A stretch of DNA of 44,103 nucleotides. Source: Planctomycetaceae bacterium. GTDB lineage: Bacteria; Planctomycetota; Planctomycetia; Planctomycetales; Planctomycetaceae. Below are positions 29,342-42,584 of the stretch, in pieces. The notes under the pieces are model-generated. The model was given only the letters and a program-made list of their open reading frames with translations. It ran no database searches and was not told the DNA's origin. Made by a program: the position numbers and the translations under genes. The number at the start of each line of letters is the position of its first letter. The first letter of the stretch is position 1. Where the stretch lies: the NCBI GenBank assembly GCA_028284885.1, contig JANQQW010000320.1, positions 1 to 44,103 of the forward strand. The letters run 5' to 3'.

Positions 29342-32300
29342 TCACGCTCCGCCGCTGACTGACTCGAAGATCGCCTTCGCGAGATACGGCAACGCGGTGG
29401 CCCGGAATTTCTCATCCTCGAGGTAGCGGGTGACGATCGCGTCGTTGTCGCTCATCCGTTCAATCATCAACGACTCCATCAGCTTCTCGATGCCGAGCTG
29501 GAACTTGTCGAGCGTGTTGGCCTTCGCCGTCGAGACGACCCGCTCATCGCTGGCGGCCTTGGCCCGGATCTGCTCGAAGAACAGCCGGTCCTCCTCGGCC
29601 AGTTCCGTCCCGAACCGATCGTTGAGCACCTTGATCAACTCGGAGAGCGGTACGTCCTCCTCCTTCGCCTTCCGTGAGCCGACATCCGTCGGCCCCTTCA
29701 CGCCGTCGGATTCACCGTCCGACAGGTCGATCTCCCCCGAAAACGTCTGCTGCGTGCGGATGTGGGAGAGTTCGACCTCGCCCTCAAGCCGCACGGCGGT
29801 GGTGTTCAGCCCGGTGGGGAGGTCGGGGAGAACGAACTTCCCAAAGCCGTAGAGCATCTCCAACTCCCGGTCCGGGTACGGCATGATCTGGCTGAGGAAC
29901 GAGTACAACTGGACGAAGGCCGAGAGCTTTTCACGAAACTCGATCCGCTCGTCGTCGTCCTCGATCCCCTTGAAACGGTCGACGCAGGGGGCGGTCCACC
30001 GCTTCAGGTCGGCGTGGTCCTTGCTCCGCTGGTGCTCGGGGCGTTTGAAGAAGACCTTGGCGAACGCCTCGACCTCGCTCCAGTGGTAGACCTGCTTCTC
30101 GCCGAGTTCGTGCTTCAGCGCCTCCAGCTTCTCCGGCTCCGAGACCTCCTGCAGGCTCGTCGCGTCGTAGTACGGCTTGAAGGCGTCGTACACGTCATCG
30201 GCCTCGTTCACGAAGTCGAGGACGAAGGGCTCCTCCTTGCCTGATATCTTCCGATTGAGCCGTGAGAGCGTCTGCACGGCCTGCACGCCGTCGAGCCGCT
30301 TGTCGACGTACATCGCCATCAGCAGCGGCTCATCGAAGCCGGTCTGGTACTTGTTGGCCGCGATGAGGACTTGGTAGTCGGACGACTCGAATCGCTCGGG
30401 GAGTTGCCGTTCGCTGATCGGCTTCCCGGTGACCACGTCCGGGTTCATCTGCGGCTCGGTGTACTCGGCCTCCGTGTCCGGGTCGACCACCTTTCCGCTG
30501 AACGCAATGAGGGCCCGCACGTCGTCGTAGCCGTGCTCCTGGACGTACTTGTCGAAGGCCAGCTTGTACTTCACCGCGTGCAGCCGAGAGGACGTAACCA
30601 CCATTGCCTTCGCCTTGCCCTCCAAGTGGCTCCGCACGGACCGGCGGTAGTGCTCGATGATGATCTCGATCTTCTGCTCGATGTTCGTCGGGTGGAGGAC
30701 AACGAACTTCGCCAACGCCCGTTGGCCCTTCCGCTTCGGAAGGTTGGGATCCTCCTCAATCTGCTTCACCAGCCGGAAGAAGGTCTTGTACGTCGTGTAG
30801 TTCTGAAGCACGTCGAGGATGAACCCCTCCTCGATCGCCTGCCGCATACTGTAGACGTGGAATGCCTCCGGCTTGCCGTCGGTCCCCGGCCGGCCGAACA
30901 GTTCGAGCGTCTTCCCTTTCGGCGTTGCCGTGAACGAGAAGAAGCTGACGTTCGGCTGCTTCTGCCGCGACTGCAGCACTCGGTTGATGCCATCCTCCCA
31001 GTCTTCGTCCTCGTTCGAGGACGCGACGTTCGCCCCGAGCAGCTGCTTCATTTCGCGGGCCGTGTCGCCAGTTTGGCTGGAGTGAGCCTCGTCGACGATC
31101 ACGGCGTATCGTCGCTTCGCAATCCGCTCCGCCCACTCCTTGGCCGCCTTCTTGGCATCTTCGTCCGGGTTGTCGATGTCGTCGGCCCCGGCGTGCTTCA
31201 GTAGTCCGCGAAGCACGAACGGAAACTTCTGCAGCGTGGTGACGACGATCTTCGTCTCGTCGACGAGCGCCTTGGCGAGCTGGGACGAGTCCTCGTCGAT
31301 CGCCTGGACGACGCCCTGCACGTGCTCAATCTGGTAGATCGCGTCCTGCAGCTGGTCGTCGAGGACTCGCCGGTCGGTGATCACGATCACCGTGTCGAAG
31401 ACCTTCTCGTCGGCGTCGTTGTGCAGACTCGCAAGGCGGTGCGACAGCCATGAGATGCTGTTCGTCTTGCCGCTGCCGGCGGAGTGCTGGACGAGGTAGG
31501 ACTCTCCCGACCCCTCGCCGCGTGCCCTTGCGACGAGCTCCCGCACGGCGTCCAGCTGGTGGTACCGCGGGAAGATCATCGTCTCCTTCTGGATCGTCTT
31601 CTTGCCGCCGTGGCCGTCGTCGATCTTCTCCTCGCTCCTTTCGACGAACATGAAGTGCCCGAGGATGTCGAGGAGGCTGTCTCGCTGGAGCACCTCCTCC
31701 CAGAAGTAGCCGGTGCGGTAGCCGCTGGCGTGGACAGGGTTGCCAGCCCCGCACTTCACGCTTCCGGGGTCGCTACCACGGTTGAAGGGGAGGAAGTAGG
31801 TCTTCTCCTTCCGCAGCCGTGTGGTCATGTAGACCTGCTCGGAGTCCGCGGCGAAGTGGACCAGCGCCCGCTGCTTGAACGCGAAGAGGGGGGCGGTCGG
31901 CTGACGATCGTGCCGGTACTGGTGGATCGCGTTCGCCCACGTCTGGCCGGTCTGCGGGTTCTTCAACTCGATGGTCGCGATCGGCAGCCCGTTGACGGCG
32001 AGCACGATGTCGACGGTACTCCCGTCGTTGGGATGGCAGGGCACCTGCCGCGTAACCGTCAACTCGTTCGCGGCGTACTTCTCCAGCACGTCGGGGGAGA
32101 GCCGGTGGGCCGGCTTGAACTGCGCCGCGCGGAACGTCTTGCCGTAGAACTTGAAGCCGTGCCGCAGGACGTGGAGCGTCCCCTTGAGGCCGAGCTCCTT
32201 CACCACAGCCTTGGTGAGCATCGCCTCCAGCCCCTTGCCGTGGAGCGTCCGCATCTCCTCCCACAGCTTCGGCTGCGTCGCTTGGAGGAACGAGAACAGC

Positions 32301-32425
32301 CGGGCCGGGAACAGGGCATGCTCCTTGTCCCATTCCCCGAGTTCGCCTGGCTTCCAGCCGGCCTTCGTGCGCAGGAGTTCCTCGACGTAGGACTCGAAGG
32401 CCTTCTCGGTGTGCATTCCGGGCAT
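29342..32425 (-). CDS. hsdR: Type I restriction endonuclease, R subunit
   Basis: A 1027-residue motor and nuclease subunit. ATG 32425 is chosen for the GGGAGGA site 6 bases upstream; the longer open frame only reads the AATCGTCAG repeats. The N-terminal nuclease domain shows VDIVLAVNG and TIELKNPQTGQ (D..ExK) near residue 150. The helicase follows: Walker A QHSAGSGKTNSI near 312, VDEAHSSQTG (DEAH box) near 443, FFSFTATPKGKTLELFG as motif III, and KYQTGFDEP and QTLSRLNR as later motifs. It should cut DNA away from unmethylated sites in complex with HsdM and HsdS. It is last in the minus-strand operon. All key motifs look intact, in contrast to hsdM. Confidence 0.95.
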   Translation of the reverse strand: MPGMHTEKAFESYVEELLRTKAGWKPGELGEWDKEHALFPARLFSFLQATQPKLWEEMRTLHGKGLEAMLTKAVVKELGLKGTLHVLRHGFKFYGKTFRAAQFKPAHRLSPDVLEKYAANELTVTRQVPCHPNDGSTVDIVLAVNGLPIATIELKNPQTGQTWANAIHQYRHDRQPTAPLFAFKQRALVHFAADSEQVYMTTRLRKEKTYFLPFNRGSDPGSVKCGAGNPVHASGYRTGYFWEEVLQRDSLLDILGHFMFVERSEEKIDDGHGGKKTIQKETMIFPRYHQLDAVRELVARARGEGSGESYLVQHSAGSGKTNSISWLSHRLASLHNDADEKVFDTVIVITDRRVLDDQLQDAIYQIEHVQGVVQAIDEDSSQLAKALVDETKIVVTTLQKFPFVLRGLLKHAGADDIDNPDEDAKKAAKEWAERIAKRRYAVIVDEAHSSQTGDTAREMKQLLGANVASSNEDEDWEDGINRVLQSRQKQPNVSFFSFTATPKGKTLELFGRPGTDGKPEAFHVYSMRQAIEEGFILDVLQNYTTYKTFFRLVKQIEEDPNLPKRKGQRALAKFVVLHPTNIEQKIEIIIEHYRRSVRSHLEGKAKAMVVTSSRLHAVKYKLAFDKYVQEHGYDDVRALIAFSGKVVDPDTEAEYTEPQMNPDVVTGKPISERQLPERFESSDYQVLIAANKYQTGFDEPLLMAMYVDKRLDGVQAVQTLSRLNRKISGKEEPFVLDFVNEADDVYDAFKPYYDATSLQEVSEPEKLEALKHELGEKQVYHWSEVEAFAKVFFKRPEHQRSKDHADLKRWTAPCVDRFKGIEDDDERIEFREKLSAFVQLYSFLSQIMPYPDRELEMLYGFGKFVLPDLPTGLNTTAVRLEGEVELSHIRTQQTFSGEIDLSDGESDGVKGPTDVGSRKAKEEDVPLSELIKVLNDRFGTELAEEDRLFFEQIRAKAASDERVVSTAKANTLDKFQLGIEKLMESLMIERMSDNDAIVTRYLEDEKFRATALPYLAKAIFESVSGGA

Positions 32426-32452
32426 CTCGATCCTCCCGCCGACGGCCGGCGT

Positions 32453-32551
32453 CTGACGATTCTCGATTTCGGCCTGACGATTGTCTGACGATTCCGGCCA
32501 CTGGCGGAATCTGACGATTTCACGATGCGGTCTGACGATTATCTGACGATT
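32453..32551 (-). repeat. Tandem 58-bp duplication built of AATCGTCAG units
   Basis: CTGACGATT (AATCGTCAG on the minus strand) occurs six times, beginning at 32453, 32474, 32485, 32511, 32532 and 32543. The spacings 21, 11, 26, 21, 11 show that three units form a block duplicated at a 58-base period. The block spans the end of the DUF4062 gene and the leader of hsdR. The repeats read SDNRQ in the upstream protein's tail. Confidence 0.85.
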
Positions 32552-34091
32552 CGCCCGCTCCACGCAGCACGTAGCGAGTCGACCGTCCCGCCCCTTTTCT
32601 CGCGGCGATCCCGAGCTTCACGAGTTCCTTCAAGTCCCTCGCCGACGTGTCCCGCGTCACGCCGAACGTCTCGATGCACCAGCCGCTCGTCACCGCCTCG
32701 CCCTGCAGCATCACCTCGACGATCTGTCGCTGACGGTCGTTGAGTTGCTCTTCGACCGACGGAGGCACGACGTTCGACGACACATCACCCGGAGTACGGA
32801 TCCGGTCGAGGTCATCGCCGGGGCCGGCCAGCGTGACCACGAAGTGCCCGCTGTCCGTCCCGAATCGCGGTGGGTCGAGACCGTGGTCGAGCATCTCGGC
32901 GTGCATCCGCCGGATCCCACTGCCGCGTTCCTCGATCTTCTCGAAGAACGACAGTCCGAAGGCAATCAGCGGGTTTCGCGAACTCGGGCGGTAGTTGCCG
33001 GACCGCAATTTCGACAGCGTCACCGGCTTCGGCGGCAGGCCCGGACTCGAGATGACGACCCGATCCTTGAACACCTCCACGCTGATCCGCTGTCCCTCCT
33101 GCTCGTAGTCCCGGTGGGCGACGGCGTTCACCAACGCCTCCCGCAGTGCCTCCTCCGGGTACTCGTTCAGCTTCACTTGGGTCAGCGCCACAACGCGGAT
33201 CGGGTGCCGCGTGTTCTTCCACACGAAGTCGACGATCTCGCCGATCGCGAGCGGCAGCGGCCCGTTCACCTGATGCGAGTCGTCCGGCCGGTGCGTCCGC
33301 TTCGTCCCCCGGTAGGCATCCAGCATGATGCGGCTCTGGGGAAGCACGGCTGCGGGGTCGCTTCCCAGCAGGAGCAGCGCGGCCGCGGTTGGGAAGTCCT
33401 CGTCGCGCGACGAGTCGTGCCACACGAGCCCTCGCCGGCGAAGCCGCTCCCGCACGTTCTCACGCGACATGCGGGCCGCACTCACGCCGTCCGCTCCCGA
33501 GATGAACCGCCGGCAGAGCTTCAGGTCGAGCGCCGTCCAGGGCACCTGATCGATCTGTCGCAGCCCGAACCCCGAGGCCGACTCGACGGCATCGGAGCCG
33601 AGCTGGTTCTCGTCGGAGGTCGGCTCGATCTGAAACTCGTCCCGGAAGACCTTCAGGAGCGACCGTCGCACCTCCTGCTGCATCTGGCCGATGTCGCCGA
33701 ATCGCTTGTACTTGAAGCCATCCTTCTTGATCTCGGCGAGCAGCTTCTCCCGGACGGACTTCTCACGTCCCGTGTCGCGGGCACCGCGGATGAAGATCAG
33801 GATCGGGAGTTCCCGCTCCTTCGCTCGGCGGTACTCGTGGTGCGTGATCGACAGCTCGTCGAACTCGTAGCCGTACTGGTCACCGACGATCAGCACGTAC
33901 GCCTCGCAGCCGTCGATCAGTTCGAGGCACTCCTTGACCGCCTTCTTCGGGGAGGCCGGCTCGACCTCGTAGAGGACCGCCTCTCCGTGCTCGTGCAGGA
34001 ACGGATCGATCGTGAACAGGTTGGCGATCGCGAGCCGGTGGTCCTGCAACTCGCTCTGGACGGAGCTGACGAAGACGCGACGACGCGACAT
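32520..34091 (-). CDS. DUF4062 + HATPase_c_4/AlbA-type regulator fused protein in RM operon
   Basis: A 523-residue protein from ATG 34091, whose A is also the last base of the hsdS stop (TGATG), so translation is coupled. Residues 1-150 are a DUF4062 domain, TIR/SLOG-like in character: RRVFVSSVQSELQDHR, CEAYVLIVGDQYGYEFDELSITHHEYRRA. The middle has the pattern of AlbA_2/HATPase_c_4 'RecG-related' regulators: YPEEALREALVNAVAHRDY, DRVVISSPGLPP, RNPLIAFGLSFFEKIEERGSGIRRM. Residues about 440-510 form a winged helix (NDRQRQIVEVML, TSARDLKELVKLGI). The last residues (SDNRQTAS) come from the repeat block. The role is not known; it may sense a signal and control or arm the RM system. Confidence 0.88.
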   Translation of the reverse strand: MSRRRVFVSSVQSELQDHRLAIANLFTIDPFLHEHGEAVLYEVEPASPKKAVKECLELIDGCEAYVLIVGDQYGYEFDELSITHHEYRRAKERELPILIFIRGARDTGREKSVREKLLAEIKKDGFKYKRFGDIGQMQQEVRRSLLKVFRDEFQIEPTSDENQLGSDAVESASGFGLRQIDQVPWTALDLKLCRRFISGADGVSAARMSRENVRERLRRRGLVWHDSSRDEDFPTAAALLLLGSDPAAVLPQSRIMLDAYRGTKRTHRPDDSHQVNGPLPLAIGEIVDFVWKNTRHPIRVVALTQVKLNEYPEEALREALVNAVAHRDYEQEGQRISVEVFKDRVVISSPGLPPKPVTLSKLRSGNYRPSSRNPLIAFGLSFFEKIEERGSGIRRMHAEMLDHGLDPPRFGTDSGHFVVTLAGPGDDLDRIRTPGDVSSNVVPPSVEEQLNDRQRQIVEVMLQGEAVTSGWCIETFGVTRDTSARDLKELVKLGIAARKGAGRSTRYVLRGAGESSDNRQTAS

Positions 34092-35452
34092 CACGCCTCC
34101 CCCCGCACGTCGATCTTGCCGGTCACGGCCGCGGTGATCAGGGCCGTGCGGAACTCCTGCAGGCGGTCGATCGCCTCCTCGACCTTCGCAGTCATCGCGT
34201 CCAGCTTCTCGGTTTCGATGTCCAAGAAGGATGCGATCGCCTCCTGTTCTGGTAGAGGCGGCCGTGGGAACCTGTAACGCCGCAGCTTCTCGCCGGGAAG
34301 GTGAGGAATCGTGTTCGGATTGCCCTCTGCCGTGAAGATCCCGAAGCCATTCGCCCATCGAAGCGTGTAGCAGAAGTATCGGGGTGATTCGGACTCCGTT
34401 CGCGGTCGGATTCGATGTAGGGCCTTCTGGTATCCGAGTCCCGCGGAATCCTCTCCTACGATGGCACAGCGACCAAGTTCCCTGCCCTCACACGCGAGGA
34501 TGTCACCCGGTTCGACGGTGAATCGCAATCGCTCCGCCGGGAGGATGTCCATCTCGGGCAGCCCGACTTTGTGAATCCGATCCCACCGAACGTCAGTGTT
34601 TCTCAGATAGCGGATTGGGTGCTCACCGGTGATCCGCTTCGCGTCCACCATCTTGCCCAAGTCCACTCGGAAACGGGCGTTGACGGGCGGTGTCTCCCAG
34701 TGTTTCGGCACCTCGCCGAGCCAGTCGATGCCGGAGTCCTTCATCGGGGGGTGGGGGTCGAGGCCGGCGGCGCGGGCGGCGTCGGGGGGGAGGCCGCGGG
34801 TGACGGTGCGGGAGATCAACGCCTGCCGCTTCTCCGCCAGCCGCTCGATCAACTCCCGCTTCTTCCCGATCAGCAGATCGACCTTTGCCGTCTCGCGATC
34901 GAGGAAAGCCGCGATCGAGCGTTGCTCGTCGATGCTCGGAACCGCGATGCGAAGTGACGCAGCATCTGCCTGATAGATCGTCTTGTGGGTCGAGCCTGAC
35001 ATGAGACGATCGAACTCACCGCGCATCGCGCGGAACGTGTGCAGGAGGTAATCGGGGACGAGCTTCGGCCCGCAGACCCAGTTCCAAAAGTCCTGCGAGG
35101 TCGCCATCGGTCGCGGCATGATGCCCGAGAACCCAACCGAGGCTGTTCGAGAGAACACCACCGTATTTGTGGGAAGCAACTCAGCAGCCGAGTTCGCCAG
35201 CCCCAACTTGCTGATCGTTTCGGCGGTCTCCCCCAAGAGCTTCTGGCGGCCGTCTCGAAGCTGCCAGATGTCCTTCAGCGTGAACCACGGGATCTCGCAG
35301 TCTTCCCAATACGCGCCTTCGGTCCGAGAGGGCGTGTGCCCGGTCCGCATCATCGCGAACCGACGGATGTTGCCGACCTCCCAGTGCTCCGGCACCTCGC
35401 CGAGCCACTCGACACCGCTTGCCTTGTAGCTCGGGTAAGCTGCGCGACTCAC
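34091..35452 (-). CDS. hsdS: Type I restriction specificity subunit
   Basis: A 453-residue specificity protein from GTG 35452, overlapping the hsdM stop by four bases (GTGA). It has the expected two halves. Each opens with a WLGEVPEHW/WLGEVPKHW-type motif (near residues 15 and 230), continues with a target-recognition domain, and closes with a helical spacer: FLDRETAKVDLLIGKKRELI and FLDIETEKLDAMTAKVEEAI. The two recognition domains differ, so the site should be bipartite and asymmetric. It positions HsdM and HsdR on DNA. No frameshift is seen. Confidence 0.93.
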   Translation of the reverse strand: MSRAAYPSYKASGVEWLGEVPEHWEVGNIRRFAMMRTGHTPSRTEGAYWEDCEIPWFTLKDIWQLRDGRQKLLGETAETISKLGLANSAAELLPTNTVVFSRTASVGFSGIMPRPMATSQDFWNWVCGPKLVPDYLLHTFRAMRGEFDRLMSGSTHKTIYQADAASLRIAVPSIDEQRSIAAFLDRETAKVDLLIGKKRELIERLAEKRQALISRTVTRGLPPDAARAAGLDPHPPMKDSGIDWLGEVPKHWETPPVNARFRVDLGKMVDAKRITGEHPIRYLRNTDVRWDRIHKVGLPEMDILPAERLRFTVEPGDILACEGRELGRCAIVGEDSAGLGYQKALHRIRPRTESESPRYFCYTLRWANGFGIFTAEGNPNTIPHLPGEKLRRYRFPRPPLPEQEAIASFLDIETEKLDAMTAKVEEAIDRLQEFRTALITAAVTGKIDVRGEA

Positions 35453-37580
35453 GCCGTCACCTCCCGCAGCAGGCCGAGGATCTCCTCCTCCAGCTGCTTG
35501 ATGTCGCCCTCGATTTCCTCCAGCGGCCGCGGCGGCTCGTAGCGGTAGAAGTGCCGGTTCAGCGGAAACTCGTAGCCGACCTTCGTCTTCGACTCGTCGA
35601 CCCACGCATCCGGGACGTGCGGCAGCACCTCGCGGGCGAGGTAGTCGGCGATCCTCTCCTTGAGCGGCACCGTCTCCGTGTCCCGCAGCTGCGAGTCCGG
35701 CTCCGGGTTCCCCTTCTTGTCCCGGCAGATCTCCGCCGCCTCGTCCCGTTCGGAGAGGGCCGAGAGGATCGCCTTCCGCTCCACCGCGACGAGCTTCTCA
35801 CCCGCCGATTTCTCGTGGGCCTTGAGGGCCTTCTCGAACGCCGTCCGATCCCGGTACAGTTGCCCCTCGGTCGTCGTTGCCAACCTCGCGAGGAAGTCGC
35901 GAAGCTCCTGCTGCCGCTGCTCCCCGGCCGCGATCTCCTTCCGCCGCGCGGCCTCCTGCTTCTTTTTGCTCTTCGCGAGGTTCACGAACGTCGTCTCGTC
36001 CTCGATGCGGGCGATCCGTTCCTCGCTCGCCTGGAAGTTCAGTCGCAGCGGTCGTTCGACCGTGATCTTGTGGAAGCCGAAGTCTTCGTTGTCGAAGACC
36101 TTGCTGACGACGAGTTCCTTCGTGACCGGCTGTCCCTTCTTGTCGGTCAGCGTGAACTCGTGAGTCTCGCCGTCGGAGAAGTTGCCGCGGAGGCGGGTGA
36201 TCTCACCGACGTGGTCCGGGTCGTTCGGCGAGCCGGGGTCGCTGGGGTCGCCGATCTTCCTTCGCTTGTTCCCGAGGCTCTTCTTCATCGGGATCCAGAA
36301 GTTGCGGGCGTCGACGAGCTGGACCTTCCCTTTCCGCTCGTCCTCCTTGCGGTTGGTGAGCACCCAGACGTAGGTGGCGATGCCGGTGTTGTAGAAGAGC
36401 TGCTCGGGCAGGGCGACGATCGCCTCCAGCCAGTCGTTCTCGATGATCCAGCGGCGAATCTCGGACTCGCCGCTCCCGGCATCCCCGGTGAAGAGCGGCG
36501 AGCCGTTGAACACGATCGCGACACGGCTGCCGCCGTCGTCCGGGCTCCGCATCTTCGAGAGCATGTGCAGCAGGAACAGCAGGGCTCCGTCGTTGATCCG
36601 CGGAAGGCCGGGGCCGAAGCGGCCATCGAAGCCGAGCTTCGCGTGCTCGTCCTCGATGGTCTTCTTCTGCTTCTTCCACTCCACGCCGAAAGGCGGATTG
36701 GCCAGCATGTAATCGAAGCGAAATCGCTCGCCATTCGCGTTTCTGTCGAATCCATCGCCATGAACGTGTCACCGAGGATGATGTTCTCGGCCGAGTCCCC
36801 CTTGATGAGCATGTCCGCCCTGCACACGGCCCAAGCCTCGTCGTTGTCGTCTTGCCCGTAGAGGTGCGGATTCGCGTCGGCGTTGAGTTGGCGGATGTAC
36901 TTCTCGGATTCCGAGAGCATCCCACCCGTCCCGCAGGCCGGGTCGTAGATTGTCTTCACGACGTGGCTGCGTCGCAGGTCCTGCTCAGGCGCAAGCAGAA
37001 GGTTGACCATCAGCCGGATCACCTCTCTCGGAGTGAAGTGATGCCCGGCCTCCTCATTAGATTGTTCCGCCCCAATTCGGATGAGTTCCTCGAAGGCGTA
37101 GCCCATCTGGATGTTGTCGACCCGCTCTGCCGAGAGGTCGATCTCCGGCTTGCAGAAGGCCTTCACGACCTCGAAGAGCAGGTTCTTCTCGGCCATGCGG
37201 GCGATGTGCGTGTCGAAGCCGAAGCGGTCGATGATGTCCCGCACGTTCGGCGAGAAGCCCGCGATGTAACTGTTGAAGTTCGGTGCGAGCTGGTTCGGAT
37301 CGTCCAGCAGCCGCGGCATGTCGAGCTTTGAAGTGTTGTAGAACGCTGCCCCAGAGACTTGCTGCAGCTTGTGCCGCACCACGGAGTCCGGCTTCCCCTT
37401 CAGCTTCTCAGCCTCGTCGAGCACAGCCTGCTTCGTGGGCGCGAGCAGGCAGTCGAATCGCCGGAGGACGGTCATCGGCAGAATGACCTTGCGGTATTCG
37501 TTCCGCTTGTACGGCCCGCGGAGCAGGTTGCAGATGCTCCAGATGAAGTTGGCGATCTCGCGGTGGGACAACGGCGGCAT
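35449..37580 (-). pseudogene. hsdM: hsdM, type I DNA methyltransferase, frameshifted
   Basis: Two frames together make one HsdM. The first, from ATG 37580 (MPPLSHREIANFIWSICNLL; ATG 37619 is an alternative), holds HHFTPREVIRLMV and the SAM-binding motif YDPACGTGGM, and reads homologously to IILGDTFM. The second resumes as DGFDRNANGERFRFDY and carries the catalytic NPPFGVEW and the C-terminal half down to 35449. The shift lies at about 36751-36765 and fits the loss of one base (or gain of two). It separates the two catalytic motifs, so no active methylase is made unless ribosomes change frame or the base is a sequence error. HsdM would methylate adenine in the HsdS target. Confidence 0.88.
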
Positions 37581-37842
37581 GCGTGTGACCGGGCGCTCTG
37601 GCGGATAGTGGATCCGCATCACACGAGACTCGAGGGCGTCGCACAAGGGTTCACGCCGGAGGCACTGGGGAAACCCCATGCACCAGAACCAGCCGAACAG
37701 TGCGTCGGCTGGACGATCGTGATCGAAGCCGGAAGACTGGTCGTGCGACGCGGGATAGGGTCGCTCCCGAACGCCGGCCGTCCTACCCGGCTTCCCGCGT
37801 TCGCTCCTCGCTCCGTAGGACGCCGCGAGTAGGGCCGGGGCG

Positions 37843-38598
37843 ATGGCAGATGACCAGTGGGGCAGTGTTGAGGGTCGCCTCGAACGCGAGGCGGCTGAGC
37901 GCGCTGAGGGGGCGGGCCATGCGGCTCGCATCACCGACTTGCGGAATGCTCTCGACGCCGCGAATCCGTGGAGCGGTGCGGCGTACCCACGGCTCTGCGA
38001 AGCGGCTGGGATCGCCACACGACAAGCACCCGACGGCAAGTACCAGCTTGATCCACCGGAGCAGGAGGCGCGTCGGTTGCGAGACGTGTGGATCGATCGA
38101 CTTCGCCGACTGGCCGGCGTCATCGAAGATCAAGGACTGTGGGAGTGTGTCGGACACGTTCCCGAGGACAACGCTGCGGCGGTCATCGTGCGCATGATCC
38201 TCTCCGGCTGCAACGAAACAGAGTTGCATGACGCGATCCGGCGCTACGGCGGCCCGATCGCGCGAGATTGGACAACACTTGAAGACCGGCTCATGCGCGA
38301 TGGAGAAGCCGATCCGCAGGCCGTCTCGATGGTCGAGAAAGCTCTGGACGAGTCATCTGCTGGCGGTGACGAGGTTCACCAGTATGTCACGCTCGACCAG
38401 CTTGCCGCGATCATCGGGAGGAGCAAGAGAACCCTTGAACGGTGGCAACGGGAGAAGACGGGGTTCCCAATGCCTGACATCGAGGGCGGCGGCGGCAAGG
38501 CACACGAATGGCGGTGGGATCGTGTTCGCCCTTGGCTCATCAAGGAAGCAAAACGTGATCTCCCCGAGCGCTTCCCGGCAGATCGTGTTGTGAAGTGA
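37843..38598 (+). CDS. Island protein with C-terminal helix-turn-helix, function unknown
   Basis: A 251-residue protein, divergent from hsdM with a 262-base gap likely to hold both promoters. The N-terminal 180 residues are helical and charged (LEREAAERAEGAGHAARI, EQEARRLRDVWIDRLRRLAG) and match nothing I know. The C-terminal 65 residues (VTLDQLAAIIGRSKRTLERWQ, then HEWRWDRVRPWLIKEA) look like a MerR/excisionase-type winged HTH. It may regulate the island or bind its origin. First gene of the rightward mobility module. Confidence 0.7.
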   Translation: MADDQWGSVEGRLEREAAERAEGAGHAARITDLRNALDAANPWSGAAYPRLCEAAGIATRQAPDGKYQLDPPEQEARRLRDVWIDRLRRLAGVIEDQGLWECVGHVPEDNAAAVIVRMILSGCNETELHDAIRRYGGPIARDWTTLEDRLMRDGEADPQAVSMVEKALDESSAGGDEVHQYVTLDQLAAIIGRSKRTLERWQREKTGFPMPDIEGGGGKAHEWRWDRVRPWLIKEAKRDLPERFPADRVVK

Positions 38599-38704: not shown

Positions 38705-38920
38705 ATGGACATCTGGGGCCGGCTGATCGAACCGGATGCCATCTACACGGATGGCGACATTCGGCTTGCACTGGGCCTGACCACCGCGACGCTGAGCCGT
38801 GCCCGACGCGATGGACGACTGCGCTACTCGAGACAGGGCCGAACGCTGCTCTATCGCGGGTCGTGGTTGCTGGACTGGCTCGAACGCGATGCCTCCGAAA
38901 GAGACGGAGGCGAGCGATGA
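38705..38920 (+). CDS. Small HTH DNA-binding protein
   Basis: A 71-residue protein with GGAGGGCG shortly before its ATG. TDGDIRLALGLTTATLSRARRDGRLRYSR is a helix-turn-helix and LLYRGSWLLDWLERD the following wing and helix, as in excisionase/AlpA-like regulators of mobile elements. Its stop overlaps the primase-helicase start (ATGA), so the two are translationally coupled. It could be a regulator or a recombination directionality factor. Confidence 0.8.
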   Translation: MDIWGRLIEPDAIYTDGDIRLALGLTTATLSRARRDGRLRYSRQGRTLLYRGSWLLDWLERDASERDGGER

Positions 38921-40836
38921 AGCTGCAGGAGATCGTCGCGAAGCTGAGCGGAGTGCGCGAAGTCGAAGGCGGCTACGTCGCTTGCTGTCCGGCGCACACA
39001 GACAAGCGGCCGAGTCTCAGTGTCTCCGCTGGGGACGAAGGTGGGGTGTTGCTGTACTGCCACGCTGGCTGTTCGACCTCAGAAGTGGTCGAGGCCCTCG
39101 GGTTGAAAATGTCCGACTTGATGCCAGACGACGATCGGCAGCCGGTCGCAACGAAGTCACACGGCACAAGTAAAGTACACAGGTCGAGGACATTCCCCAC
39201 AGCCGAGTTGGCGCTCACAGCGCTCGATCAACTCGGCAAGCGTACGGGAGTGTGGGTCTACCGAGACGCAAATGGGGATGTGGTGGGAGTCGTCGGGCGT
39301 TGGGATACGGATGTCGGCAAGACGATACGCCCGGTCTCCCGAAACGGGAAGGGCTGGAAGATCGCGTTCTTGGGTTCGCCGTGGCCGCTCTACCGGCTGC
39401 CGAAACTGGCTGACTACCAAGGGCTGGTCTACGTCGTCGAGGGAGAGAAGGCAGCCGATGCTGGTGTGACCATTGGGCTGAACACGACGACATCTGTTGG
39501 CGGCAGTAGAGCAGCGAGCAAGACGGACTGGTCGCCGCTCGCCGGACGCGATGTCGTGATCCTCCCCGACAACGATGACGCTGGGGAGGCATATGCATCT
39601 GACACGATTGCTCTGCTGCACGCACTCGAGCCGCCAGCACATGTCCGCATCGTCAAGCTGCCACATTTGCCGGACAAGGGGGACATCGCGGACTGGGTTG
39701 ATATGCACGATGCGGTGGAGTCGGAACAACTGCGAGGAAACGTCGAGACTCTGGTTGAGGCTGCTCCGATCATTCTGCCGACCGATGGCGGCGGGACGCA
39801 GTCCGGCGAAGGAGAACGCAAGAACGGCGTCGTCCGGTGCATGGCCGATGTGGAGCCGCGAAGAGTCTTGTGGCTCTGGCCAGGGCGCATTCCACGCGGG
39901 CGTTTGACGCTGATTGTGGGGCGGCCTGGCGAGGGGAAGTCGTTGGTCACGCTGGACCTCGCAGCCAGGGTCTCCGCCGGACGCGATTTCCCTGACGGGA
40001 GGCCCTGCGAACCGGGGGCCGTCCTGCTCCTCTCCGCCGAGGACGACCCACATGACACGCTGCGACCGCGTCTCGATGCAGCACTGGCGGATGTGAGCCG
40101 AGTGCATCTGTTGTCGGCGGTACGTACTGACGGGGGCGAACGGTGCGTCACTCTGTTCGATCTCGGCGTGATCGAAGAGTCGCTCCGAATGATCAGCGAC
40201 TGTCGTGTCGTAATCGTCGATCCGATTGGAAGCTATTTGGGGCGTACGGACGCCCATCGCGACAATGAAGTGCGGGCCGTCTTGGCCCCGTTGGCGTCGC
40301 TGGCTGAACGGTTCGGGGTAGCAGTGCTTGTTGTTGCCCACCGTCGGAAGGCGAACGCCGAACACGCTGACGACACGACAATCGGCAGCAGGGCGTTCAC
40401 GGGAATCGCAAGAGCGGTCTGGCACGTCTCCCGCGAACGCGCCGACCCTGACCTCCGCTACTTTCTGGCGGGCAAGAGCAACATCGCACCCGAGTCGACG
40501 GGACTGGCGTTTCGCATCGGAGGCGACCCTCCTCGGATCGACTGGCAACGTCAAGCCGTGACGATGAGTGCTGACGACGCACTGCGCGCGGAGAGCGTGA
40601 TCCGGCAACGCGGACCAAAGCCGCGCGAGCGCGAGGAGGTCGCCGAGTGGCTGCGCGAGGCGCTTTCCGATGGTCCCCGACGAGCGACTGACATGCAACA
40701 AGATTGGGAGGAGCAGGGGTTCAAGAGACGCACTGTTGACAGGGCGAAGCGGGCGATTGGCGTCCAAAGCGTCAAGGATGCCAACGAGTGGTGGTGGCAA
40801 CTGCCCGGAGATGATGAACGCAGCGAACAGCCCTAG
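38917..40836 (+). CDS. Primase-helicase (CHC2 zinc ribbon, TOPRIM, RepA-like ATPase)
   Basis: A 639-residue replication protein from ATG 38917. It has three modules. The zinc ribbon is CCPAHTDKRPSLSV with YCHAGC (residues 23-53). The TOPRIM primase part has VYVVEGEKAADAG and ILPDNDDAGEAYA. The RecA-like AAA ATPase has GRPGEGKSLVTLDLAARV as Walker A, LLLSAEDDP, and VVIVDPIGSYLG as Walker B. A C-terminal winged-helix-like region follows (EVAEWLREALSDG, RRTVDRAKRAIG). Such proteins prime and unwind DNA for autonomous replication of excised islands and satellites. The reading frame after the TAG continues open for 47 codons to a TGA that overlaps the next gene's ATG, suggesting the present stop is premature. 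Confidence 0.9.
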   Translation: MKLQEIVAKLSGVREVEGGYVACCPAHTDKRPSLSVSAGDEGGVLLYCHAGCSTSEVVEALGLKMSDLMPDDDRQPVATKSHGTSKVHRSRTFPTAELALTALDQLGKRTGVWVYRDANGDVVGVVGRWDTDVGKTIRPVSRNGKGWKIAFLGSPWPLYRLPKLADYQGLVYVVEGEKAADAGVTIGLNTTTSVGGSRAASKTDWSPLAGRDVVILPDNDDAGEAYASDTIALLHALEPPAHVRIVKLPHLPDKGDIADWVDMHDAVESEQLRGNVETLVEAAPIILPTDGGGTQSGEGERKNGVVRCMADVEPRRVLWLWPGRIPRGRLTLIVGRPGEGKSLVTLDLAARVSAGRDFPDGRPCEPGAVLLLSAEDDPHDTLRPRLDAALADVSRVHLLSAVRTDGGERCVTLFDLGVIEESLRMISDCRVVIVDPIGSYLGRTDAHRDNEVRAVLAPLASLAERFGVAVLVVAHRRKANAEHADDTTIGSRAFTGIARAVWHVSRERADPDLRYFLAGKSNIAPESTGLAFRIGGDPPRIDWQRQAVTMSADDALRAESVIRQRGPKPREREEVAEWLREALSDGPRRATDMQQDWEEQGFKRRTVDRAKRAIGVQSVKDANEWWWQLPGDDERSEQP

Positions 40837-41216: not shown

Positions 41217-41268
41217 TCCGTACTTGTCGGTACGGTCGGGTAGGAACGCGGCGACAGGGAGCGAGCAG

Positions 41269-42573
41269 ATGGCGAGTATCAGCACCTCGAAGCAGTCCGG
41301 CCGCCGGATGATTCAGTTTGTCGGCAGCGATGGACGGCGTCGGACCCTCCGATTGGGCAAGGTGCCCATGAAGCTTGCAGAGTCGGTGAAGCTACGGGTC
41401 GAGCGGTTGAATGCGGCAAAGCTCGCAGGGCACGCCGTCGACGACGACACGGCCCGCTGGGTCGGCACGCTCGACGACACGCTGCACGCCAAACTCGCTG
41501 CGGTGGGGCTTGTGGAGGCTCGTGGGACGACGACGCTGGCGGCGTTCGTCGATGGCTACATACGTAAGCGGGTCGACGTGAAGCCGGCGACGCTGACGGT
41601 CTGGGGGCACACCCGACGCAATCTTGTGGAGTTCTTCGGCGAGCACAGGTCGCTGCGGTCGATCACTCGCGGTGATGCCGAATCGTGGCGGCTCCATCTT
41701 GTGGGAGAGGGGTTGGCGGAAGCGACGGTCCGAAAACGGTGTGGCTTTGCCAAGCAATTCCTTGAAGCGGCCGTCCAGCAGGGCTTGCTCCAGACCAATC
41801 CGCTCCGAGAGCTCAAGTCCGCCTCTCAGACCAACACCAGACGGCAGAGGTTCATCACGCAGGACGGCATCGCCAAGGTCATTGCGCATGCCCCAGACGC
41901 TGAGTGGGCTCTGATCTTCGCCCTAGCCCGGTTCGGCGGCCTTCGCATCCCATCAGAGGTGCTGCCCCTCCGCTGGCAAGACGTGAACTGGGCAGAGGGA
42001 ACGATCCTCGTGCACTCGCCGAAGACCGAGCACCATGCCGGTGGCGAGACCCGGCTTGTGCCGCTGTTCAGCGAACTACGGCCGTTCGTTGAGGCGGCAT
42101 TCGACCAAGCCGACGAGGGGGCCAACCACCTGATCGAGCGGCATCGTGGGTCGGCGAAGAACTGGCGGACTCACGCCAATCGGATCATTACCCGGGCAGG
42201 GATGGAACCGTGGCCAAAGACGTTCGTGAACCTCCGAGCATCGCGTGCGACTGAGCTGGCTGAACGATTCCCCGCCCACGTCGCCGCAGCTTGGATGGGT
42301 CACACACAGGCGGTCGCCGAACGGCACTACTGGCAGACGACGGAATCGCACTTCAGGCAGGCCACAAGTGCACCGACCGCGCTGCAGAATCCGATGCAGT
42401 CAGGAGCGGAATCAGCTCGCATCGACTCGCAAGCCGACGGGACCGCGCAAGAAGAACCCCGCGAATTGCGGGGTTTTGCGACTGCTCGCGAGGCGATGCA
42501 GTGTACGCGAGTGGAGGATAGGGGACTCGAACCCCTGACCTTCTGGCTGCCAGCCAGACGCTCTCCCAACTGA
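41269..42573 (+). CDS. int: Tyrosine recombinase / integrase of the island
   Basis: A 434-residue integrase from ATG 41269 with GGGAG 8 bases upstream. A SAM-like core-binding domain (TLAAFVDGYIRKRVDVKPATL, TVRKRCGFAKQFLEAAV) precedes the catalytic domain. Catalytic features are the first Arg in FGGLRIPSEVLPLRW, a Lys in SPKTEHH, the second Arg in VNLRASRATEL (the usual box-II His is not His), WMGHTQAVAERHYWQ with GH and the nucleophile Tyr nine residues later. The reading frame continues past residue 400 through a terminator hairpin and into the tRNA-Ala gene, ending RVEDRGLEPLTFWLPARRSPN. Those last residues are therefore encoded by the attachment site and tRNA antisense strand, and would differ in the excised circle. 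Confidence 0.93.
   Translation: MASISTSKQSGRRMIQFVGSDGRRRTLRLGKVPMKLAESVKLRVERLNAAKLAGHAVDDDTARWVGTLDDTLHAKLAAVGLVEARGTTTLAAFVDGYIRKRVDVKPATLTVWGHTRRNLVEFFGEHRSLRSITRGDAESWRLHLVGEGLAEATVRKRCGFAKQFLEAAVQQGLLQTNPLRELKSASQTNTRRQRFITQDGIAKVIAHAPDAEWALIFALARFGGLRIPSEVLPLRWQDVNWAEGTILVHSPKTEHHAGGETRLVPLFSELRPFVEAAFDQADEGANHLIERHRGSAKNWRTHANRIITRAGMEPWPKTFVNLRASRATELAERFPAHVAAAWMGHTQAVAERHYWQTTESHFRQATSAPTALQNPMQSGAESARIDSQADGTAQEEPRELRGFATAREAMQCTRVEDRGLEPLTFWLPARRSPN
42455..42475. terminator. Island-supplied terminator for tRNA-Ala (inside int frame)
   Basis: AACCCCGC (42455-42462), loop GAATT, GCGGGGTT (42468-42475), then TT on the + strand. On the minus strand it is followed by CTTCTT, 37 bases beyond the tRNA 3' end, so it can stop tRNA transcription. 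It lies within the element and inside the integrase reading frame. Confidence 0.75.
42509..42532. other. Right attachment site
   Basis: GAGTGGAGGATAGGG then GACTCGAAC. It covers the discriminator base, acceptor 3' strand and part of the T arm of tRNA-Ala and is repeated at 29012-29035. Confidence 0.87.
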
Positions 42574-42584
42574 GCTAATCCCCC
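42512..42584 (-). tRNA. tRNA-Ala (anticodon GGC)
   Basis: A 73-base tRNA. Acceptor GGGGGAT pairs with ATCCTCC and includes the G3-U70 pair that marks alanine tRNAs, with discriminator A73. D arm GCTC/GAGC; anticodon stem TCTGG/CCAGA around loop CTGGCAG, giving anticodon GGC for GCC codons. T arm AGGGG-TTCGAGT-CCCCT. CCA is not encoded. It is intact despite the island in its 3' end. Confidence 0.96.

Follow-up and report, generated by a model that had tools for sequence, protein, structure and literature searches.

The gene that lies between hsdS and hsdR in the type I restriction-modification (RM) operon of the window, i.e., the whole stretch of 44,103 nucleotides analyzed here, probably encodes a DNA-anchored abortive-infection NADase, carried as cargo by methylation-based defense operons. 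It joins a DUF4062 domain to a GHKL-type ATPase module and a C-terminal winged helix, and it is accompanied at its own 3' end by an array of phased direct repeats, the unit of which co-varies between loci with the recognition helix of the encoded protein.

Gene Architecture

All gene calls were our own ORF picks, and the features are collected in Table 1. A sequence-only reading of this DNA had located the gene correctly and given no strand; the minus strand encodes it, from an ATG at 34091 to a stop that ends at 32520, and the genome of the window has a single copy. Its ATG overlaps the hsdS stop codon by one base (TGATG), as that reading had noticed, and its position ahead of hsdR was likewise confirmed by Pfam (Methylase_S on one side, HSDR_N and SWI2_SNF2 on the other), with hsdS and hsdM upstream and hsdR downstream, in the order hsdM-hsdS-gene-hsdR. 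The later start proposed for hsdR is based on its relatives, which could be aligned only from residue 42–50 on.

The three-part architecture that had been proposed also held. In the 523-residue protein, Pfam recognized DUF4062 at residues 5–90 (E 1.8e-17; profile PF13271, 63.8 bits vs. a cut-off of 24.7) and HATPase_c_4 at residues 333–421 (E 5.2e-23). The Pfam HTH match at residues 453–498 was weak (E 0.0022, below the cut-off), and in the AlphaFold model residues 452–509 clearly form a winged helix (pLDDT of 89.5 for the entire protein and 92.7 for the isolated N-terminal domain).

Table 1. Features of the RM operon and of the nested gene, in window coordinates.
Feature	Position	Strand	Basis
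DUF4062 - HATPase_c_4 - wHTH gene, 523 aa	32520..34091	-	ORF and Pfam
N-terminal DUF4062 / TIR-like domain, residues 1-160	33612..34091	-	Pfam 5-90 and model fold
E86 codon (putative catalytic Glu, equivalent to KpSwz E97 in the alignment)	33834..33836	-	Alignment
HATPase_c_4 (GHKL-type) domain, residues 333-421	32829..33095	-	Pfam; E318 and N322 conserved
Winged helix, residues 450-512	32556..32744	-	Weak Pfam HTH and AlphaFold model
Recognition helix region, residues 479-493, co-varying with repeat unit	32613..32657	-	Covariation test
Direct-repeat array, six AATCGTCAGA copies, two triads	32452..32551	-	Unit search
hsdS open frame, true start unsettled	34091..35605	-	Methylase_S, E 4e-21
hsdM C-terminal half, own frame	35449..36708	-	N6_Mtase
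hsdM N-terminal half, in an open frame that exceeds the gene	36285..38123	-	HsdM_N, N6_Mtase
hsdR open frame; ATG near 32425, past array, is its likely start	29342..32563	-	HSDR_N, SWI2_SNF2

The reading frame of hsdM in the window breaks near 36.7 kb, just before the NPPF motif, so that its two halves stand in different frames, and this may reflect either a real pseudogene or an assembly error; in view of the frameshift, the present copy of the nested gene may guard a broken system. A primase-like gene (38863–40836) and a tyrosine integrase (41224–42573), which overlaps a tRNA-Ala (42511–42584), lie beside the RM operon, which is therefore likely to sit on an integrated element or genomic island.

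Family Sample and Conservation

Relatives were collected by a genome-collection scan with the DUF4062 half of eight relatives, which found at least 529; the best 80, ranked by similarity to the DUF4062 domain of the window, were kept, and counts out of 80 below refer to this sample. For context counts, the 80 loci were the window, L031 and L038–L117 minus L040 and L106, the latter having given no ORF match. Two branches were distinguished, namely group A (the window and 80 loci) and group B (L027, L028, L032–L037). Both the DUF4062 and HATPase halves were found in one ORF at 75 of the 80 loci. In L074 (6674–10459) and L078 (6968–10459), the DUF4062 match stands at the end of a frame of 1163–1261 aa and the HATPase half lies outside this frame, perhaps by fusion or read-through.

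Some relatives are themselves frameshifted or cut. The alignment of 65 full-length group A proteins accordingly omits those that are cut, short or frameshifted (L043, L044, L046, L054, L066, L071, L074, L076, L078, L081, L105, L106, L107, L110, L112, L117), together with L040, which equals L031 as a second copy of one contig, and L032–L037 of the other DUF4062 branch. In these 65 proteins, drawn from the best 80, F7, S9, S10, Q12, E14, R19 and E86 are invariant, as are E318, N322, H326, R327, Y329, G351 and G392; E318 and N322, which are N-box-like, were thus kept in 65/65. A tblastn search of viral contigs found no relative, and a plasmid search with the DUF4062 part (Legionella query) matched two Legionella records only, on which grounds a virus or plasmid origin was rejected.

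Association With Defense Operons

The recurring association with type I RM operons that the sequence-only reading had set as a test was found: hsd genes were present within 7 kb and on the same strand at 19 of the best 80 of at least 529 loci, and never on the opposite strand. A DUF1156 methyltransferase (BREX-related) was the neighbor at 12 further loci and an SNF2 or PLD helicase at 4 further loci, while L047, with BrxC and an Eco57I methylase, raises the partnered loci to 36/80. The profiles for hsd, DUF1156 and helicase genes were built from these loci, and ten representatives were verified by Pfam. None of the 80 loci had an opposite-strand partner of any of these three kinds, vs. a same-strand share of 413/640 for all neighboring ORFs. 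At the other 44 of these best-ranked 80, no methyltransferase or helicase partner was recognized within 7 kb, nor did any family recur among those of their neighbors that were scanned with Pfam, so that dependence on RM is not general.

Among the 19 type I loci of this sample, 13 had hsd genes on both sides, and five of these 13 nested loci had the order hsdS-gene-hsdR. The start codon overlapped the end of an hsdM, hsdS or SNF2 helicase gene at 20 of the 72 testable loci among the best 80. The interval between hsdS and hsdR was also inspected at 20 loci of hsdR relatives, where it held a Schlafen-HATPase_c_4 gene in four (L147, L149, L152, L154), broken into pieces in L149, and IrrE, AAA/OLD-like or DUF5655 genes in five that were checked (L143, L144, L146, L148, L159); at others, hsdS directly adjoins hsdR. 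Such variety of genes points to a cargo slot between hsdS and hsdR.

A TIR-Like N-Terminal Domain

A 2026 preprint on Swarozyc describes DUF4062 as a TIR-like NADase. According to this preprint, KpSwz of K. pneumoniae depletes NAD+ in abortive infection and requires E97, its auxiliary domain has an HTH/winged fold, and TIR activation requires oligomers (PMC13174449). The profile of the window family matches the deposited KpSwz chain 10wc (E 5.5e-8), and E86 aligns with residue 84 of this chain, an Ala, which by its numbering would be the E97A site if the construct starts at residue 15. The earlier reading had made its interpretation depend on conserved putative active-site residues in DUF4062, and one was indeed identified, a Glu being present at the E86 position in 65/65 relatives from the best 80.

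That reading had also called this domain "TIR/SLOG-like" and proposed to compare its modeled structure with both folds. The TIR part stands: with VIA-align, the model of the N-terminal domain gave TIRs as top matches (SPARTA, MAL, plant TIRs, SARM1; Z about 11–13.6). The SLOG part found no support in profile or fold matches: Pfam gave no SLOG match, and no SLOG protein appears among the listed fold matches, a listing which does not in itself exclude SLOG. Model and alignment together show a predicted TIR-like fold with a conserved putative catalytic Glu; from this fold, the conserved Glu and the published family, we infer that the DUF4062 domain of the window protein acts as an NADase.

A Chassis in Common With Schlafen-HATPase Proteins

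Residues 166–514 of the model match DIP2311 (3lmm_A) with a Z of 22.1 over 289 residues (rmsd 5.9), and the sequence profile also matches 3lmm_A in its HATPase and wHTH parts (E 3.1e-20). SLFN_AlbA_2 was found in 21 of the 29 other HATPase_c_4 proteins compared; Pfam gave no match to it in the window protein. Proteins of the Schlafen(AlbA_2)-HATPase_c_4-wHTH type are described as effectors with a backup role next to BREX and BREX-related loci (PMC12839542). In line with the C-terminal match, the window protein looks like this chassis carrying another effector, the effector having been swapped, as judged from sequence and model. A chassis tree (57 rows, long branches) requires at least 1–2 effector changes and does not fix the number of independent swaps. 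On a Vibrio plasmid, a TIR-domain gene (L168, 4236–5399) was observed two genes past a HATPase_c_4 gene.

A Phased Direct-Repeat Array at the 3' End

In the window, AATCGTCAGA is repeated six times within 100 bp, once with 1 mismatch. The copies form two triads in which the unit starts are spaced by 11 and 21 bp; the last codons of the gene contain two of them, and the other four lie between its stop and the likely hsdR start. Six matches anywhere in the window were reached in 5/100 shuffles, so that it is their clustering that matters: all window matches (up to 1 mismatch) fall inside the array, and a pair of closely placed copies occurs nowhere else in the genome.

Such arrays are a property of the family. 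In a test that looked for three 8-mers with starts 10–12 and 20–23 bp apart and did not require AATC, applied to the 68 loci from the best 80 in which the stop was complete and followed by 100 bp or more, an array was detected near the stop at 57/68, vs. 9/3509 background windows and 0/68 shuffled regions; the misses (L043, L062, L081, L086, L096, L102, L103, L107, L111, L115, L116) include some loci with looser arrays. Near the stop, the units of 62 loci (from the best 80) gave 221 sense and 4 antisense matches, and the distances between units peak at 11, 21–22 and 32–33, i.e., about one, two and three helical turns. An RNA element was rejected (folding z of 0.05 vs. shuffles for the array region; Rfam finds only the tRNA).

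Comparable repeats were also found outside group A. In 8/9 of the group B genes plus L022, at least three phased copies lie within the gene itself, ahead of the wHTH (with 12-nt steps in group B), a count in which one locus figures twice, L028 and L033 being the same. Other HATPase_c_4 genes had phased copies near their 3' part in 8/29 vs. 13/731 background windows, and nine plasmid relatives had three or more in 4/9. From the stop codon of a HATPase_c_4 gene on a Streptococcus plasmid onward, a 10-nt repeat recurs 15 times or more (L166, 3349–3500). In L027, L028 and L032–L037, 12-nt DNA repeats encode the TPEV, VTGQ, LPTQ or APQV peptide repeats that precede the wHTH; these peptides may be by-products of in-gene DNA sites.

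Covariation of the Repeat Unit and the Recognition Helix

The unit consists of AATC and five further bases, and it is these five that are alike within a locus and different between loci. The unit search used for covariation required AATC (up to 1 mismatch), so that the constancy of AATC is partly by construction here, which is not the case in the array test above (57/68). For 61 of the 62 loci with a unit, namely those also in the 65-sequence alignment (from the best 80), we asked how far similarity of the five bases follows that of a sliding 15-residue window of the protein, rest-of-protein similarity being held constant. The best of 496 windows was residues 479–493 (partial r 0.585), which coincides with the recognition helix of the model (480–492), while the best window clear of 468–495 reached 0.278. 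The window maximum was reached in 0/300 permutations, for the 61 sequences as well as for reduced sets of 32, 21 and 15; permutation ignores phylogeny, a limit that the window control and the reduced non-redundant sets answer in part. Of the 25 most associated single columns, 8 fall in 478–493.

Individual loci illustrate this relationship. Proteins that are 38–40% identical and have the AATCATCCG unit share RDTAHRDL- or RDTAFRDL-like helices, whereas proteins that are 74% identical and have other units differ in the recognition helix. As exceptions, L057/L073 and L108 have AATCGTAAA in common but unlike helices; L108 carries several arrays, and its unit may thus be wrongly assigned. Supported by this covariation, the winged helix appears to recognize the 3' repeat array of its own gene.

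Proposed Mechanism and Alternatives

The DNA-anchored reading that we favor runs as follows. The DUF4062 domain would be a TIR-like NADase effector and the central GHKL-type module its switch, while the C-terminal winged helix, as covariation suggests, would bind the 3' array of its own gene, each protomer reading one AATC-N5 unit. The spacing of the units is close to one and two helical turns, and all of them have the same direction, which would align protomers on one face of the DNA, where several of them could stand side by side, poised or held silent. Phage attack, probably through breach or inhibition of the restriction system, would then switch the complex on, and the depletion of NAD+ would lead to the death of the infected cell. 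The observed overlap of the start codon with the stop of hsdS, hsdM or a helicase gene may couple the supply of the protein to its host operon. This mechanism is favored because TIR activation requires oligomers, as stated in the Swarozyc preprint (PMC13174449), and phased direct repeats would align protomers; the position of the array at the 3' end counts against it, as do the several different arrays of some loci (e.g., L108, L083, L039).

The sequence-only reading had left open an abortive back-up arm or a regulator of RM expression. The abortive arm fits the NADase activity published for DUF4062 (PMC13174449), while a plain RM regulator is less favored: the region upstream of the gene shows no excess of units (4 matches in 62 loci × 300 bp, from the best 80), which led us to reject promoter-type autoregulation through upstream sites, and the array is present even where the next gene is convergent (e.g., L053, L055, L056, L067), which indicates that it belongs to the DUF4062-HATPase gene. 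The array does lie between the gene and hsdR in the window, and this point is retained in favor of RM regulation.

The chief rival, which we consider rather unlikely and which could be true together with the DNA-anchored NADase, is an autoregulatory roadblock, in which the winged helix on the array would block RNA polymerase and limit transcription of its own mRNA and of hsdR, with DUF4062 acting only as a sensor or dimerization part. The placement of the window array ahead of the likely hsdR start would suit such a role, as would the overlap of many arrays with the stop codon and the 12-nt arrays inside the genes of the second DUF4062 branch, before the wHTH. It accords poorly with the invariance of the putative catalytic Glu (65/65, from the best 80), with the convergent next genes and the lack of upstream enrichment just mentioned, and with the variety of genes that follow the array (hsdR, hsdS, hsdM, DUF1156).

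The nature of the effector was also considered. The nucleoside hydrolases DNPH1 and MilB rank close behind the TIRs (Z about 12), a near-equal match by which the substrate is not fixed by the fold, and DUF4062 might be a nucleotide N-glycosidase or deoxyribosyltransferase-like enzyme of this type, which would deplete or change nucleotides rather than NAD+; its closest characterized sequence homologue is, however, an NADase, which makes this improbable. A role of the array as a recombination or cassette boundary by which such genes hop between operons, rather than as a regulatory or tethering site, is very improbable. The gene is indeed found in unlike operons, and at L039, L083, L084, L089 and L108 several differing AATC-type arrays follow one gene in series, as if the arrays of earlier genes remained; but covariation with its own recognition helix would be needless for a bare recombination site, no recombinase is fused and the 11/21 spacing is strict. 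Least probable of all is a Swarozyc proper, in which the winged region would detect a phage protein (e.g., the portal, as KpSwz does) and the repeats would be incidental: despite the DUF4062 homology and the HTH/winged auxiliary fold of KpSwz (PMC13174449), the profile aligns solely with the DUF4062 part of this 326-aa protein, window-type proteins contain a GHKL module and their recognition helix co-varies with DNA units.

On a broader scale, and only tentatively, since we regard it as somewhat doubtful, a modular class may be envisaged, in which several suicide enzymes (TIR-like NADase, Schlafen RNase) would be mounted on a GHKL-wHTH DNA-reading chassis, each with its own cognate phased array at or in the 3' part of its gene and a helix code reading AATC-N5. 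The array would be an anchor and assembly scaffold on which effector protomers stand ready in one orientation, to be released or fired by phage attack or restriction failure, and the odd TPEVTPEV or VTGQVTGQ peptides of related proteins would be by-products of in-gene arrays of this kind.

Comparison With Known Systems

These results link three subjects that are not joined in the literature searched, namely NADases of the DUF4062 type, the backup effectors with a Schlafen-HATPase-wHTH architecture at BREX-type loci, and type I RM operons, and they add to the chassis an effector of a second kind. In that literature, the DUF4062-HATPase-wHTH protein in RM operons and the array are unreported; Figure S1 of the preprint may show the fusion or its operon context. 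Through the array and its covariation, the winged-helix tail becomes a testable candidate DNA-reading module, the code of which can be read. Should the array serve as an anchor or scaffold, this would represent a new way of keeping a suicide enzyme silent yet ready, and the cognate sites of related proteins would be predictable from sequence alone.

With Swarozyc (KpSwz; PDB 10wc, 11cq, 11cv; PMC13174449), the window protein shares DUF4062, a Glu at the matching place and a C-terminal winged part. It differs in its length (523 aa vs. 326 aa), in the addition of a GHKL-type HATPase_c_4 and a linker, in its nesting within an RM operon and in its cognate DNA repeats; no portal-binding part was recognized in it, the profile aligning with the DUF4062 of KpSwz only. 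With Schlafen-HATPase_c_4-wHTH proteins (PMC12839542; DIP2311, PDB 3lmm), the chassis is held in common, as is the hsdS-hsdR slot at the four loci named above, and repeats lie near the gene in a minority of them; the effector of the window protein is DUF4062 and not the Schlafen RNase domain. The type-1 BREX-related (BR) systems consist of an SNF2 helicase-nuclease, a DUF1156 methyltransferase and a DUF499 ATPase, as described in the available part of the same source, the text of which mentions neither DUF4062 nor HATPase (PMC12839542). Genes for DUF1156 methyltransferases adjoin 12 of the best 80 relatives, whereas the operon of the window is a type I RM operon.

The arrangement of this operon has its own precedent. 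PrrC and RloC are accessory suicide-type genes embedded among hsd genes, and both are anticodon nucleases; the gene of the window is likewise an accessory gene among hsd genes, but is a predicted NADase with a DNA array of its own.
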